Shown here piece after piece: positions 29,885-60,270 of a stretch of DNA of 64,000 bases (its first letter is position 1; every line of letters starts with the position of its first letter). The notes beneath the pieces are model-generated. The model made no database searches, was not told where the DNA came from, and was given only the letters and a program-made list of their open reading frames with translations. Source of the DNA: Halobacillus amylolyticus (GTDB taxonomy: Bacteria > Bacillota > Bacilli > Bacillales > Halobacillaceae). The DNA is taken from the NCBI RefSeq assembly GCF_022921115.1, contig NZ_CP095075.1:3918001-3982000 (forward strand). Direction: 5' to 3'. Position numbers and translations under genes: made by a program.

Positions 29885-30010
29885 AAATAAAAAAGGAGAT
29901 ATCTGCTAATGAGATATCTCCCGGGCTTTTTTCCCTCCGTGTCACAGCGTGATTAACTGTGTGTCTTCTCTCGGACCAGTCCGCTCATATGAACGCGGAA
30001 CCCTAGAAAA
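29885..30010 (-). ncRNA. Guanidine-I (ykkC) riboswitch with terminator
   Basis: Read on the minus strand, the conserved blocks occur in order: CTAGGGTTCCGC, then CTGGTCCGAGAG, then ACACGGAGGGAAAAAAGCCC, then GGGAGA. The aptamer covers 29917-30010. It is followed by GGAGATATCT/AGATATCTCC and a T run (29885-29921), whose 5' arm shares bases with the end of the aptamer. Guanidine binding should prevent this terminator and turn on the SMR pair. The match to the known RNA family is very good by eye. Confidence 0.95.
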
Positions 30011-30030
30011 CAGCTTATAAAGTTATGTTT

Positions 30031-44454: not shown

Positions 44455-44640
44455 GTGTCAAGCTGCGGCGCCCAGACACGCAAGACTAGCAGTTCGCCTT
44501 CATGAAGAAAAACCACTTCACTGCGCCGCTCCGCTTATACTTGGCCCCACACGACGTGGGGTCGTTCGGCGTTGAAACAGGACGTTTCGGTTTTAGCCGA
44601 ACTTCCCCTACCCGGGCACCTGCGCTTTTGTTGAAAGGAA
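44455..44640. repeat. GC-rich intergenic element, non-coding
   Basis: This stretch is much richer in G and C than its surroundings. It holds small hairpins such as CCCCAC/GTGGGG (near 44553-44569) and TTCGG/CCGAA (near 44588-44603). A 62-codon open frame crosses it, with GVETGRFGFSRTSPTRAPA in the product, but there is no ribosome site. From memory, such sequences recur between genes in bacilli and have been mis-annotated as small proteins. It is most likely a dispersed non-coding repeat; only one copy lies in this window. Confidence 0.5.
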
Positions 44641-46455: not shown

Positions 46456-46779
46456 TTGGTTGAAATGATAGAGGAATGGATCAAACGGGTGAATAACAGA
46501 AAAGACTTACTCCCAAAATGGAAGAAGAGACAAGTGTTTTTAAAGATTCAAGATCATCGGTCTGAGTTTATTAATGTATCTATTACAAGAGAGGGGATGA
46601 AACTTGTGCATGAAAACACCGTCAGTAGCGCACTTACGATTTCGTCCTCTAATAAAGTTTTCCAACAGCTTTTTGGTGGTAATTTGAAATTAACTTCACT
46701 ACCACGTTCCATCGTTAGACTTGAAGGCGAATATAGGGATATCCTTTTAGTTGAATCACTACTGGTGCTTTCTCATTAA
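46456..46779 (+). CDS. yusD: SCP2-like small protein (YusD)
   Basis: A 107-residue protein beginning MVEMIEEWIKRVNNRKDLLP, with beta strands such as FINVSITREGMKLVHE and VRLEGEYRDILLVES. It resembles YusD, a protein with an SCP2 sterol-carrier-like fold; I am moderately sure from position and pattern. TTG start with AAGGGGGG 6 bases upstream. Its end overlaps the minus-strand thioredoxin-like gene by four bases. Function unknown. Confidence 0.7.
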   Translation: MVEMIEEWIKRVNNRKDLLPKWKKRQVFLKIQDHRSEFINVSITREGMKLVHENTVSSALTISSSNKVFQQLFGGNLKLTSLPRSIVRLEGEYRDILLVESLLVLSH

Positions 46780-47192
46780 ATTAAAGTACCAATCGCCTCT
46801 ACAATAGTTAATAAAGATGCTTTATCACCAAACTGATGTGTGATGTAACCATCTTTATTAATTATGATCGTGGTTGGTACTCCTGCACAATTGTACGCAT
46901 CGTACACTTTACGATGATTGTCTACTAGGGTTGGCTGGGCGAGGAACTTTTCAGCGAAAATTTCACCATCTTCAATATTTCTCTCACGTCCCTGTACATT
47001 AATTGTTACCATTTGTACTTTTTCATGATTTATTGATTGAAAGAGCTGTTCTTTTCTTGGTAAATCGACCCCACAGTCTGGACACCAAGAGACCCAAAAT
47101 GTTAATACGATTACTTTGCCAAGGTCATTACTTAATTGGTACGTTTCATTAGAATCTATATATGGTAACTGAAAGTCTATAGCTTTTTTCAA
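46776..47192 (-). CDS. TlpA/ResA-like thiol-disulfide oxidoreductase
   Basis: A 138-residue AhpC/TSA-type redoxin. The active motif is WVSWCPDCGVDLPRKEQ (CPDC, not the common CEPC or CPPC) and the cis-proline loop is CAGVPTTIIINKDGY. There is no signal peptide or membrane anchor, so it appears cytosolic, unlike ResA. The longest frame starts with ATG at 47210 without a ribosome site; TTG at 47192 has GAGAGGTGA 7 bases upstream and is preferred. It converges with the yusD-like gene with a four-base overlap and is divergent from the SAM-riboswitch region. Confidence 0.8.
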   Translation of the reverse strand: MKKAIDFQLPYIDSNETYQLSNDLGKVIVLTFWVSWCPDCGVDLPRKEQLFQSINHEKVQMVTINVQGRERNIEDGEIFAEKFLAQPTLVDNHRKVYDAYNCAGVPTTIIINKDGYITHQFGDKASLLTIVEAIGTLI

Positions 47193-47215
47193 TTTTTGTT
47201 CACCTCTCATTTTAA

Positions 47216-47244
47216 TTGACTTAAATGCATGACCATGCTAACAT
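47216..47244 (+). promoter_or_regulatory. Promoter of the first SAM riboswitch
   Basis: TTGACT and TAACAT are 17 bases apart, ending about 28 bases before the riboswitch. Confidence 0.5.
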
Positions 47245-47272
47245 ATTTTTTAAGCGAATAGCGACATCTATA

Positions 47273-47425
47273 CTTATCCAGAGTGGCTAAGGGACTGGCC
47301 CTATGATGCCCGGCAACCGGTTTGAATGAACACGGTGCTAACTCCAGCAAAGCATCTCGCTTTGAAAGATGAGAAGAGAATCAATGAGGACATCTCTTCT
47401 TATGACGAAGAGATTTTTTTGTGTT
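47273..47425 (+). ncRNA. SAM-I (S-box) riboswitch 1 with terminator
   Basis: The aptamer has the hallmark order CTTATCCAGAG, GGGACTGGCCC, ATGATGCCCGGCAACC, a GGTGC-CC block and the 3' P1 strand GATGAG. An antiterminator (AGAAGAGA with TCTCTTCT) overlaps a terminator stem ATCTCTTC/GAAGAGAT followed by seven T at 47414-47421. With SAM bound, transcription should end here. No gene lies between it and the next promoter, so it is either a tandem regulator or a free-standing RNA. Confidence 0.93.
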
Positions 47426-47431
47426 TTTTTG

Positions 47432-47460
47432 TTGACAGTGGATATACAGGGTGCTAGAAT
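47432..47460 (+). promoter_or_regulatory. Promoter of the second SAM riboswitch and metNPQ
   Basis: TTGACA and TAGAAT are 17 bases apart, right after the terminator of riboswitch 1. It could drive metNPQ independently of the first leader. Confidence 0.8.
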
Positions 47461-47511
47461 CCTGTTTGTGATGCTTAGTCAACCTAAAGCAGTAATGCAT
47501 TAAAATATATA

Positions 47512-47684
47512 TCTCTTATCCAGAGAGGTGGAGGGACTGGCCCGTTGATGCCCGGCAACCGTCAAGTTTTTGTTAACTTGAAAAGGTGCCAATTCCTGCA
47601 AAGTTAACAACTTTGGCAGATAAGAGAACAGACCACCAGGACGTGTAAACGCCTTTCTGTTCTCTTGCAGAAAGGCGTTTTTTG
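47512..47684 (+). ncRNA. SAM-I (S-box) riboswitch 2 with terminator, metN leader
   Basis: P1 is TCTCTTATC with GATAAGAGA. GGGACTGGCCC, GTTGATGCCCGGCAACC, and AAGGTGCCAATTCCTGCA follow in the conserved order. The terminator is AACGCCTTTCTG/CAGAAAGGCGTT with T6 at 47649-47684, and CTGTTCTCTT can instead pair with AAGAGAACAG as antiterminator. SAM should switch off metNPQ. Confidence 0.96.
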
Positions 47685-47702
47685 TATAGAGGAGGAACAA
47701 TT

Positions 47703-48728
47703 TTGATTTCGATAAAGGATTTGTCTAAGGTCTTTCATACGAAAGATCAAGACGTTCGTGCAGTAGATAAAATGGATCTTTCCATTGAAAAAGGGGAGAT
47801 TTTTGGGGTCATTGGGTATAGTGGCGCAGGTAAAAGTACGTTTATCAGGCTTTTGAATCGTCTTGAAGAGCCGAGCGATGGAAATGTCACTATTGATAAT
47901 CAAGATGTGACGAAATTGAACAAGAATAAGCTTCGTTTAGCTAGGCAAGAGATGGGCATGATTTTTCAACACTTTAACCTACTATGGTCAAGAACGGTTT
48001 TCGATAACATTGCCTTTCCATTAGAAATAGCAGGAATGAAAAAAGAGGACCGTAAAAATCGGGTCAACGAATTGATTGATCTTGTCGGGTTATCTGGAAG
48101 AGGAGGCTCTTATCCATCCCAGCTAAGTGGTGGCCAAAAGCAACGTGTAGGGATTGCTCGTGCTTTAGCTAACAATCCGAAAGTGCTGCTGTGTGATGAG
48201 GCTACTTCAGCTCTAGATCCGGAAACAACGGATTCTATTTTAGATTTGCTAGTGGATATTAATAATAAATTAGGGCTAACAATTGTACTGATCACTCATG
48301 AAATGCACGTAATTCGCAAAATATGTCATCGTGTTGCTGTAATGGAACAAGGGCAAGTCGTCGAGTCGGGCGATGTATTAGACGTATTTTTATATCCGAA
48401 ACAGCAAGTAACTAAACGTTTTGTTGATCAAGTAATGGGGGACCCTGATCGAAAACACTCACTCGAGCTTATTAATGAAACCTATAAAACAGGTGAGATT
48501 ATTAAACTTCATTTTGTTGGTGAAAGCACCAATCAGGCGCTGATTAGTGAATTGTCTAGAAAATTTGATGTGGATATTAATATCCTCCATGGAAAAATAA
48601 CCCAGACGCAAAAAGGAGCATATGGAACGCTGTTTGTCCAATTCAATGGAGACAAAGGAGAAATTGATCGGGCCATTGCTTATATTAAAACCACCTCAGT
48701 TCAACTGGAGGTGAGTCCGAATGTTTAA
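47703..48728 (+). CDS. metN: Methionine ABC transporter ATP-binding protein
   Basis: ATPase of the D/L-methionine importer, 341 residues. Walker A GYSGAGKSTFIR, signature LSGGQKQRVGIARAL, Walker B VLLCDEATSALD, H-loop LITHEMHV. The C-terminal NIL domain (about 260-341), where methionine binds to inhibit transport, is present (IIKLHFVGEST to VQLEVSPNV). TTG at 47703 is 8 bases after AGGAGG; a longer frame to 47682 lies in the riboswitch terminator. First gene of metN-metP-metQ. Confidence 0.95.
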   Translation: MISIKDLSKVFHTKDQDVRAVDKMDLSIEKGEIFGVIGYSGAGKSTFIRLLNRLEEPSDGNVTIDNQDVTKLNKNKLRLARQEMGMIFQHFNLLWSRTVFDNIAFPLEIAGMKKEDRKNRVNELIDLVGLSGRGGSYPSQLSGGQKQRVGIARALANNPKVLLCDEATSALDPETTDSILDLLVDINNKLGLTIVLITHEMHVIRKICHRVAVMEQGQVVESGDVLDVFLYPKQQVTKRFVDQVMGDPDRKHSLELINETYKTGEIIKLHFVGESTNQALISELSRKFDVDINILHGKITQTQKGAYGTLFVQFNGDKGEIDRAIAYIKTTSVQLEVSPNV

Positions 48729-49389
48729 TAACCTGTTTCCTAACGTGAAGATAGAGGATATGATCACGGCAACGAATGAAACGTTGTACATGACGATTAT
48801 TTCTGTTGCGGGAACTTTTATTCTCGGGCTAATTCTTGGTTTACTTTTATACTTGTCAGGTCCCGGGGGCATTTGGAAAAATAAAGCCCTAAATTGGGTC
48901 ACTGCAGCAGTAGTAAACGTTTTTAGGGCTATTCCGTTTATTATCTTAATCCTGCTATTATTTCCTTTTACTGACTTTCTTATGGGAACGATTCGCGGTC
49001 CAAAAGCGGCATTGCCTGCGCTGATTATAGGTGGTGCACCATTCTACGCGAGACTGGTGGAGATTGCATTGAAAGAAGTGGATAAAGGTGTACTTGAGGC
49101 TGCTAAATCGATGGGGGCTAAGTATTCCACGATTATCTTTAAAGTTCTGCTTCCAGAGTCGATGCCAGCACTTGTTTCAGGTATTACAGTTACAGCCATA
49201 GCTTTAATTGGTTATACAGCAGTGGCTGGCGTGATCGGAGCCGGTGGACTAGGCGACTTTGCTTATTTCTACGGTTTTCAGCGTAGTGACTTTGATGTGG
49301 TGTTATTCTGTACAATATTAATTGTAATCATTGTATTCATTTTCCAATTCATCGGCGATTTTATATCCCGTAAGTTGGATAAAAGATAG
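48721..49389 (+). CDS. metP: Methionine ABC transporter permease
   Basis: Membrane permease, 222 residues, with about five helices. The EAA loop that contacts MetN is seen in LEAAKSMGAKYSTIIFKVLLP. Helices include VAGTFILGLILGLLLYLSG-like and ALVSGITVTAIALIGYTAVAG stretches. It starts eight bases inside the end of metN, with CTGGAGGTGAG upstream, so the pair is coupled. Also called metI. Confidence 0.95.
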   Translation: MFNNLFPNVKIEDMITATNETLYMTIISVAGTFILGLILGLLLYLSGPGGIWKNKALNWVTAAVVNVFRAIPFIILILLLFPFTDFLMGTIRGPKAALPALIIGGAPFYARLVEIALKEVDKGVLEAAKSMGAKYSTIIFKVLLPESMPALVSGITVTAIALIGYTAVAGVIGAGGLGDFAYFYGFQRSDFDVVLFCTILIVIIVFIFQFIGDFISRKLDKR

Positions 49390-49417
49390 TTTTTAATTAG
49401 AAAAGGGGATGGAAAAG

Positions 49418-50275
49418 TTGAAAAAATTATGGACTAGTATTTTGGCGGTATTATTTATTTTAGTTCTAGCAGCATGTGGTTCTTCTGAAGAGGAGAATTC
49501 ATCTGGTGACAACAGCGAGGGTGGAGAAGGGCAAACAGAAATTACTGTAGGGGCCACAAGTGTGCCGCACTCTGAAATTCTGGAGCAGGCAAAGCCGATC
49601 CTTGAAGAAAAAGGAATCACTCTAAAGATTGAAGAATATCAAGACTATATTTTACCGAACAAGGATTTAGCAGCAGGGGTTCTTGATGCTAACTACTTCC
49701 AGCATATCCCTTACTTGAATGCCCAGGAAGAGCAACATGGATATGATTTTGCAAACCTTGGTGGCATTCATATTGAGCCTATGGGTATCTATTCCAAGAA
49801 TATTTCTAGTTTAGATGAGATTCAAGAAGGAACAACGGTCATTATGAGTCGGTCTGTTGCCGATCACGGTCGTATTCTTTCCTTACTTGAAAAAGAGGGA
49901 TTAATCAAGTTGGACGAAAGTGTCGATAAAGTAGAGGCGACTGTTGATGATATTGTAGAAAACCCTAAAAATTTGAAATTCGATACAGGAATAGATGCAG
50001 CTTTTCTTCCGGAAACGTATAAGCGTTCAGAAGATGCACTTGTAGCTATTAACACGAATTACGCTATTCAGGCGGGGTTAAACCCGACTGAGGATGCTCT
50101 TATATTGGAGGACTCTGAGTCTCCATATGTAAATGTAATTGCAGCAAAGAGTGAAGATAAAGATTCTAAAGCATTAAATACTCTAGTAGAAGTGCTCCAT
50201 TCTGAAGAAATTCAGACCTTTATTATGGAAGAATATGAAGGTGCAGTTGTTCCTGTAGACGGTTCTGCAGAATAA
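49418..50275 (+). CDS. metQ: Methionine-binding lipoprotein
   Basis: Substrate-binding lipoprotein, 285 residues, of the NlpA/MetQ family. The signal peptide ends in LAAC (LFILVLAACGSS) and is followed by a Ser/Glu-rich linker. The domain has TVGATSVPHSEILEQAKPIL, EFQDYILPN-like EYQDYILPNKDL, DANYFQHIPYL and the late YAIQAGLNPTEDALILE. TTG at 49418 is well spaced from AAGGGG; the ATG at 49409 overlaps it. Last gene of the operon, ended by a terminator. Confidence 0.94.
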   Translation: MKKLWTSILAVLFILVLAACGSSEEENSSGDNSEGGEGQTEITVGATSVPHSEILEQAKPILEEKGITLKIEEYQDYILPNKDLAAGVLDANYFQHIPYLNAQEEQHGYDFANLGGIHIEPMGIYSKNISSLDEIQEGTTVIMSRSVADHGRILSLLEKEGLIKLDESVDKVEATVDDIVENPKNLKFDTGIDAAFLPETYKRSEDALVAINTNYAIQAGLNPTEDALILEDSESPYVNVIAAKSEDKDSKALNTLVEVLHSEEIQTFIMEEYEGAVVPVDGSAE

Positions 50276-60016: not shown

Positions 60017-60270
60017 GATCGGTGAGGTAGAGGCGCAGGCTTCATTAGTAATTCAGTGTGAGGATGACAACGATGACCACGTTTACGAAAGGGGAGACCT
60101 GCCGAAGTTTATTGCAGCAGTCACGCTGCATTATTCTGGTGTGTACCTGAACAAGGGATACACTGTCATGCATGCTTTTAAGGTGCATGGTGCGCTACTG
60201 ATCGAAATGGAGGATAATCAAATTGCTGCTGTAGGGCAATGATAGGTTATTTTCTATCATTGTCTTTTTT
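60017..60270 (+). ncRNA. Lysine (L-box) riboswitch with terminator
   Basis: The aptamer 60017-60203 has P1 GATCGGT/ACTGATC and the conserved blocks GAGGTAGAGGCGC, TTCATTAGTAA, GAGGATGACAACGATGA, CGAAAGGGGAGACCTGCCGAAG and a late TGTACCTGAACAAGGGATACA. A terminator follows at 60235-60270 (GGCAATGATAG with CTATCATTGTC, then T6). High lysine should stop transcription of the NhaC-family gene downstream. Confidence 0.95.

Follow-up and report, generated by a model that had tools for sequence, protein, structure and literature searches.

Upstream of the metNPQ operon of Halobacillus amylolyticus, which encodes a methionine ABC transporter, lie two complete SAM-I riboswitches, one after the other on the same strand and with no gene between them, and on their far side a gene for a ResA/TlpA-like protein is oriented divergently. 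All coordinates refer to the window, i.e. the whole stretch of 64,000 nucleotides that was analysed (contig NZ_CP095075.1). The features of the locus are as follows:

46776-47192, minus strand: divergent gene for a ResA/TlpA-like thioredoxin-fold protein (Pfam AhpC-TSA and Redoxin; NCBIfam matches below cut-off)
47216-47244, plus strand: putative promoter 1, TTGACT-17-TAACAT, with TG before the -10 hexamer and a probable transcription start near 47251
47251-47270, plus strand: 5' leader (20 nt) of the riboswitch 1 RNA, conserved, unpaired in the consensus fold
47271-47375, plus strand: SAM-I aptamer 1 (RF00162, 89.5 bits)
47369-47403, plus strand: predicted antiterminator of riboswitch 1 (47369-47379 pairs with 47393-47403; 11 pairs, segment -13.2 kcal/mol)
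47392-47420, plus strand: predicted terminator 1, an 8-pair hairpin (47392-47414) with a T-run, -8.3 kcal/mol
47432-47460, plus strand: putative promoter 2, TTGACA-17-TAGAAT, with TG before the -10 hexamer
47513-47626, plus strand: SAM-I aptamer 2 (RF00162, 95.9 bits)
47622-47666, plus strand: predicted antiterminator of riboswitch 2 (47622-47632 pairs with 47656-47666)
47647-47683, plus strand: predicted terminator 2, a 14-pair hairpin (47647-47680) with a T-run, -21.1 kcal/mol
47703-48728, plus strand: metN, methionine ABC transporter ATPase with a NIL domain (probable TTG start)
48721-49389, plus strand: metP, MetI-type permease (NCBIfam, Pfam)
49409-50275, plus strand: metQ, MetQ/NlpA lipoprotein (NCBIfam, Pfam)

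The top NCBIfam matches of the three transporter genes all fall under the respective cut-offs: TIGR02314 MetN for metN (389.7 bits, cut-off 499.7), MetI for metP (192.8 bits, cut-off 212) and TIGR00363 for metQ (186.3 bits, cut-off 228.85); in Pfam they match ABC_tran and NIL, BPD_transp_1, and Lipoprotein_9, respectively. The inferred start of the divergent tlpA-like gene adjoins promoter 1. Between this gene and a thioredoxin-like gene there is an open frame of 107 aa (46456-46779) without NCBIfam or Pfam match, which matches in a part of the relatives with 28-62% identity. Other Rfam matches in the window comprise a Bacillaceae-1 RNA (44546-44612, minus strand), a guanidine-I riboswitch (29916-30017, minus strand) and a lysine riboswitch (60020-60205, plus strand).

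Both aptamers match RF00162 over its full length on the plus strand, with E-values of 5.5e-20 and 7.7e-22 for the first and the second, and with scores above the gathering score of 44.4. The genome contains 17 SAM-I matches, among which the pair in front of metN, with a gap of 137 nt from aptamer to aptamer, is the sole close pair on the same strand. The locus was compared across 44 genomes of the family, 43 of which possess an orthologous metN locus; one genome (G043), where MetN matches reach only about 50% identity, was left out. Two aptamers are found at 30 of these 43 loci and a single one at the other 13; these counts rest on the metN loci, and a pattern search missed most of the tandems with long gaps. 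The pairs occur in 9 of the 11 genomes of the same genus and in 21 of the 22 genomes of the largest sister genus, so that the locus comparison proposed in an earlier, sequence-only reading of this DNA finds both riboswitch units conserved in 30 of the 33 genomes of the two genera. That reading had described two tandem SAM-I riboswitches, each with its own promoter and terminator, the second leading into metNPQ, which agrees with the RF00162 matches, with folding and with the comparison of loci.

At the family metN loci the motifs that contact SAM, at positions which we take to be those of the SAM-I crystal structure, are intact in all 30 copies of aptamer 1 and in all 43 copies of aptamer 2. 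The L2 loop motif is preserved in 29 of 30 and 43 of 43 copies, and the pseudoknot partner motif in 30 of 30 and 37 of 43 copies, respectively. Both aptamers presumably bind SAM. Among the 30 tandems the mean pairwise identity amounts to 80% for aptamer 1 and 81% for aptamer 2, to 58% and 63% for the expression platforms of riboswitch 1 and riboswitch 2, and to 16% for the linker. Compared with each other, the two aptamers share 70% identity within a genome and likewise 70% across genomes, which indicates that they have been separate for a long time and rules out a recent local duplication.

Folding predicts for each riboswitch a terminator in competition with an antiterminator, the latter recruiting the 3' strand of the aptamer helix P1. 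Two terminator-like hairpins were found in the region 46800-47900, against 0.8 expected (sd 0.9). Both elements are predicted for riboswitch 1 in 29 of 30 tandems, terminator 1 of one genome (G003), whose T-run is interrupted, having escaped detection by the script, and for riboswitch 2 at 43 of 43 loci. The antiterminator of riboswitch 1 is present at all 29 loci scored. Terminator 1 (mean -9.9 kcal/mol, range -11.4 to -6.6, 29 loci) is weaker than terminator 2 (mean -18.0 kcal/mol, range -26.5 to -9.2, 43 loci), with partly overlapping ranges.

The promoters are no better than chance when only their own sequence is considered (three promoter-like sites in 46800-47900, against 3.2 in shuffles, sd 1.9), and become credible because the comparison across loci shows their conservation. 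This holds also for TTGACA-17-TAGAAT, which had been called a good promoter: it does not stand out from shuffles. The comparison finds it at every one of the 43 metN orthologues in the family, 64-87 bases upstream of aptamer 2 (64-100 nt over all the loci compared). It matches the consensus at 11 of 12 positions, against 9 of 12 for promoter 1. In 29 family tandems promoter 1 sits at -55 or -56 relative to aptamer 1; in the thirtieth (G006, locus L019) it is intact and displaced from the aptamer by an insertion of about 160 bp, and this genome was excluded wherever promoter 1 must adjoin aptamer 1 (n = 29). With this insertion, the locus is a natural experiment on whether transcription from promoter 1 continues to reach riboswitch 1. 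Both sites are probably used as promoters, and if transcription starts near 47251, the discrete terminated RNA predicted for riboswitch 1 would count about 170 bases rather than the approximately 150 that had been suggested.

While the distances between each promoter and its own aptamer are kept, the aptamers of the 30 family tandems lie anywhere between 134 and 286 nt apart. The linkers of these and of 27 tandems from named genomes (overlapping sets, gaps of 75-286 nt) contain no frame longer than 51 codons and none in common; the mechanical frames of the H. amylolyticus linker, of 43 and 44 codons, overlap the aptamer or promoter 2. In agreement with the earlier statement that no gene stands behind riboswitch 1, no coding gene directly after it was found in these 30 and 27 tandems. 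The steady spacing of promoter and aptamer, the variable gap and the lack of a recurring frame together give the picture of two separate modules.

The named genomes were collected by a pattern scan for promoter 1 and the SAM-I core, which gave 59 stretches; a covariance model built for this analysis identified SAM-I in 35 of them, 27 as pairs and 8 as singles, two of the latter (L112 and L129) in stretches cut at the end of the locus. The 27 tandems belong to Halobacillus (20), Pontibacillus (3), Piscibacillus (2), Salirhabdus (1) and Tenuibacillus (1); the 20 Halobacillus loci largely repeat family genomes, and the named set is therefore not an independent sample. In all 27, metN follows riboswitch 2, and in 26 the divergent tlpA-like gene lies upstream, the remaining stretch (L136) being cut before that position. 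Promoter 2 is present in the 20 tandems of Halobacillus, the 3 of Pontibacillus and the 1 of Salirhabdus. It was not found in the three tandems of Tenuibacillus and Piscibacillus, which occupy the same syntenic place with gaps of 75-111 bases, and the two gates would therefore act in series there. A single aptamer was found in Paraliobacillus (two loci) and in Virgibacillus salexigens (one locus).

Outside the family, the order was sampled with 46 genomes, one per family, and the best 30 metN loci of these 46 were scanned. SAM-I is present at all 30, and at 29 of them just once; the only one with two (L167) has both promoter 1 and promoter 2. Another genome, G044, which lies outside the 30 scanned order loci, carries a SAM-I pair before MetN (L064) with a promoter-like site between the aptamers.

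SAM-I tandems were also noticed in front of other genes. At least six of the 11 genomes of the same genus possess, at another locus (L029, L030, L032-L035), a compact tandem of the one-promoter layout, with a gap of 61-71 nt and a terminator between the aptamers but without a second promoter; according to Pfam, the gene behind it encodes thiolase domains in one case (L029) and an AMP-binding domain in another (L030). A genome from another family of the order (G213) exhibits a two-promoter SAM-I tandem before an O-acetylhomoserine sulfhydrylase-like gene (L068), here too adjoined by a divergent tlpA-like gene, both genes being identified by eye. A further SAM-I pair, without an evident internal promoter, precedes a gene in G309 (L067) that by eye is homoserine dehydrogenase-like.

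We consider it probable that riboswitch 1 acts as a second SAM gate, placed on the upstream promoter and secondary to promoter 2. A second control gate had been among the options offered by the sequence-only reading and is the best supported of them, with the series tandems of Tenuibacillus and Piscibacillus speaking for it. According to this model, metNPQ would be guarded by two SAM-I switches that act independently through transcription termination. When SAM is high, each RNA would bind it, its helix P1 would sequester the antiterminator strand and the terminator would end transcription, while at low SAM both antiterminators would form and the operon would be read. Promoter 2, under riboswitch 2 alone, would be the main promoter, and promoter 1 would provide a second SAM-gated input, whose transcripts would face the weak terminator 1 and then, after readthrough, the strong terminator 2. 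The arrangement may have originated by addition of an internal promoter to a serial SAM-I tandem, a one-promoter form still seen in Tenuibacillus and Piscibacillus.

SAM-I control of methionine uptake through metNPQ is established for this riboswitch class, and in the order sample all of the scanned metN loci (the best 30 of 46) have such a riboswitch. Judging from the layout of the relatives with a single switch, riboswitch 2 and its promoter 2 should suffice for such control. By simple arithmetic, riboswitch 1 would lower the leak only for the share of transcription contributed by promoter 1, i.e. at most about twofold if the two promoters are equal, and therefore the claim that switches in series sharpen the response fails to carry over to this locus unless promoter 1 sometimes dominates; the claim does fit the one-promoter layout of Tenuibacillus and Piscibacillus. 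Given that promoter 2 is closer to the consensus, the conservation of riboswitch 1 exceeds the apparent need of a minor gate. Also against the gate are the 13 of the 43 family loci that manage without aptamer 1, its probable threefold loss within the tandem clade, the overlapping strengths of the two terminators, and a conserved leader for which gating in cis does not account.

This leader, the 20 nt before aptamer 1, has a mean pairwise identity of 81% in 29 loci, compared with 38% for the spacer of promoter 1, 35% for the 33 bases upstream of that promoter, and 58% for the most conserved 20 bases, aligned without gaps, ahead of aptamer 2; in gapped alignments the values are 85% for the leader of aptamer 1 and at most 73% for that of aptamer 2. 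It drops to the level of shuffles in five relatives without aptamer 1, in four of which (G004, G010, G031 and G034) the divergent tlpA-like frame is still present. A sequence that is conserved together with aptamer 1 and vanishes with it should be tied either to the riboswitch 1 RNA or to a DNA element that was lost at the same time. An extended helix P1, which was considered as a cause of the conservation, is unsupported: the consensus fold leaves the leader unpaired, although some single sequences pair it.

The leader gives a specific reason to ask whether riboswitch 1 and promoter 1 are kept chiefly for an RNA of about 170 nt that is set free at high SAM and acts in trans through the unpaired leader, as SreA does in Listeria. 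The promoter, aptamer and terminator form a complete unit that promoter 2 bypasses, inspection by eye showed no such leader ahead of the genome's other 15 SAM-I riboswitches, only a partial likeness at L015, and SreA likewise comes from a methionine ABC operon, as far as the accessible part of its description goes (PMC8079631). However, the leader is not common, by eye, to Pontibacillus, Piscibacillus and Tenuibacillus, and the target search that the earlier reading had recommended gave no site that tracks the presence of aptamer 1. In 44 genomes, at up to three mismatches and with short or G-U seeds outside the search, the leader has 134 complementary sites and its reversed pattern 56; 25 of the 134 are riboswitch 1 itself. 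Once these are set aside, the 30 genomes that carry aptamer 1 show 77 sites against 41 reversed, and the 14 that lack it 32 against 15. The excess is about twofold in either set, so it is not linked to the presence of the RNA. Of the remaining sites, the one found most widely occurs in 7 of the 44 genomes, in the three inspected within an open frame of about 65 codons, and several others are common to two or three relatives. Nor does the leader pair above the level of shuffles with riboswitch 2/metN, tlpA or the body of riboswitch 1 (mean z of 0.45, 0.30 and 0.18). With no trans target found by complementarity and local pairing within this scope, we regard the free RNA as a possible but unlikely reason for the retention of riboswitch 1. 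That the unit is a stand-alone gene for a SAM-sensing small RNA, which would signal to other genes through a 5' seed while riboswitch 2 runs metNPQ, likewise appears improbable.

The other source of conservation would be the DNA itself: the leader and promoter 1 might be kept as an operator or as a divergent promoter shared with tlpA, with riboswitch 1 insulating metNPQ from the transcription that this promoter directs towards it. The -10 element of promoter 1 (ATGCTAACAT) reads almost the same on both strands and adjoins the start of the divergent tlpA-like gene, with which it may be shared; moreover, promoter 1 is retained in three relatives without aptamer 1 (G004, G010 and G034), and in decayed form in G031. 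Yet the same three relatives also retain the TTGAC of the -35 element, which is useful to the plus strand only, and on the minus strand only the symmetric -10 was seen, without a convincing -35 by eye. Besides, the leader has gone with aptamer 1 where tlpA stays. We therefore hold a role as DNA to be quite unlikely.

If riboswitch 1 were a neutral relic of duplication in the course of being lost, its absence or decay in some members of the tandem clade would be expected. In the MetN tree (84 of 85 rows, with unsure placement of long branches), G004 with G010, G031 and G034 fall inside the clade of tandems, which is most simply explained by three losses of riboswitch 1; G034 still has a decayed aptamer readable between promoter 1 and the terminator, and in G010 the terminator hairpin is kept and the aptamer is gone. 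On the other hand, 30 of the 33 genomes in the two genera maintain aptamer 1 together with its antiterminator, its terminator and promoter 1; the aptamer is as conserved as aptamer 2 beside a linker that is not conserved, and a relic is very unlikely. A lost gene between riboswitch 1 and promoter 2, whose leader riboswitch 1 would have been, is suggested by the lack of an evident gene directly behind this riboswitch; the proposal has a negligible probability and was ruled out, since no linker scanned holds an open frame of more than 51 codons, metN follows riboswitch 2 throughout the named tandems, and 29 of the order loci scanned (the best 30 of 46) have just one SAM-I.

The locus can be compared with several known systems. 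Double SAM-I riboswitches are represented by 164 examples in the survey of Sherlock et al. (2022, PMC9481103), in whose accessible text they are termed pseudo-cooperative, and the metN pair resembles them in the occurrence of one class twice, with no gene between and with a gap below 300 nt (137 nt here, pairs up to 300 nt being considered there). Same-class tandems are usually explained as sharpening the response along one transcript, and the model in that text requires a transcript that passes both switches, whereas the metN pair has a conserved promoter 2 between them, so that many metNPQ transcripts may pass the second switch only. Such a promoter breaks the logic of sharpening because transcription of metNPQ can skip the first switch. 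As far as the same text goes, a promoter between two riboswitches is described only for pairs of adenine and T-box(Tyr) elements. SAM pairs before metN-metI-metQ were reported to be enriched in Bacillota (Morales and Merino 2025, PMC12452182), where SAM SAM accounts for 41% of the contiguous arrangements that the available part of that article lists for metN; the operon, the riboswitch class and the doubling are the same as here, but the available part mentions a promoter for ilvB and does not treat internal promoters of SAM pairs. Among the titles and opening lines of abstracts that we searched, which mostly leave out subscription papers, neither an internal promoter in a SAM-I pair at metN nor the conserved leader of aptamer 1 was found described.

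SreA of Listeria is the SAM riboswitch of the methionine ABC operon lmo2419-2417, released as a terminated RNA at high SAM and acting in trans (the part of PMC8079631 available to us); the operon and the riboswitch are of the same kind as here, but SreA is described as one riboswitch and not a pair, and our searches revealed no target for the candidate RNA. The tandem of SAM-I and AdoCbl riboswitches of metE in B. clausii, as presented in the accessible text of PMC9481103, likewise places two full riboswitches in series, but for two different ligands. In the genome of H. amylolyticus, too, a SAM-I riboswitch and then a cobalamin riboswitch precede a gene that by eye is metE-like (L013, C1:1957842), as in B. 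clausii.

The genus itself thus combines both layouts at different loci, with one promoter before the thiolase or AMP-binding enzyme gene and with two before metN, and the metN loci of related genera provide natural one-promoter, two-promoter and single-switch versions, which makes the purpose of a doubled riboswitch directly testable. Compared with the published systems, the doubling of SAM-I at metN is already known, and the variant described here is the conserved internal promoter that allows riboswitch 1 to be bypassed.
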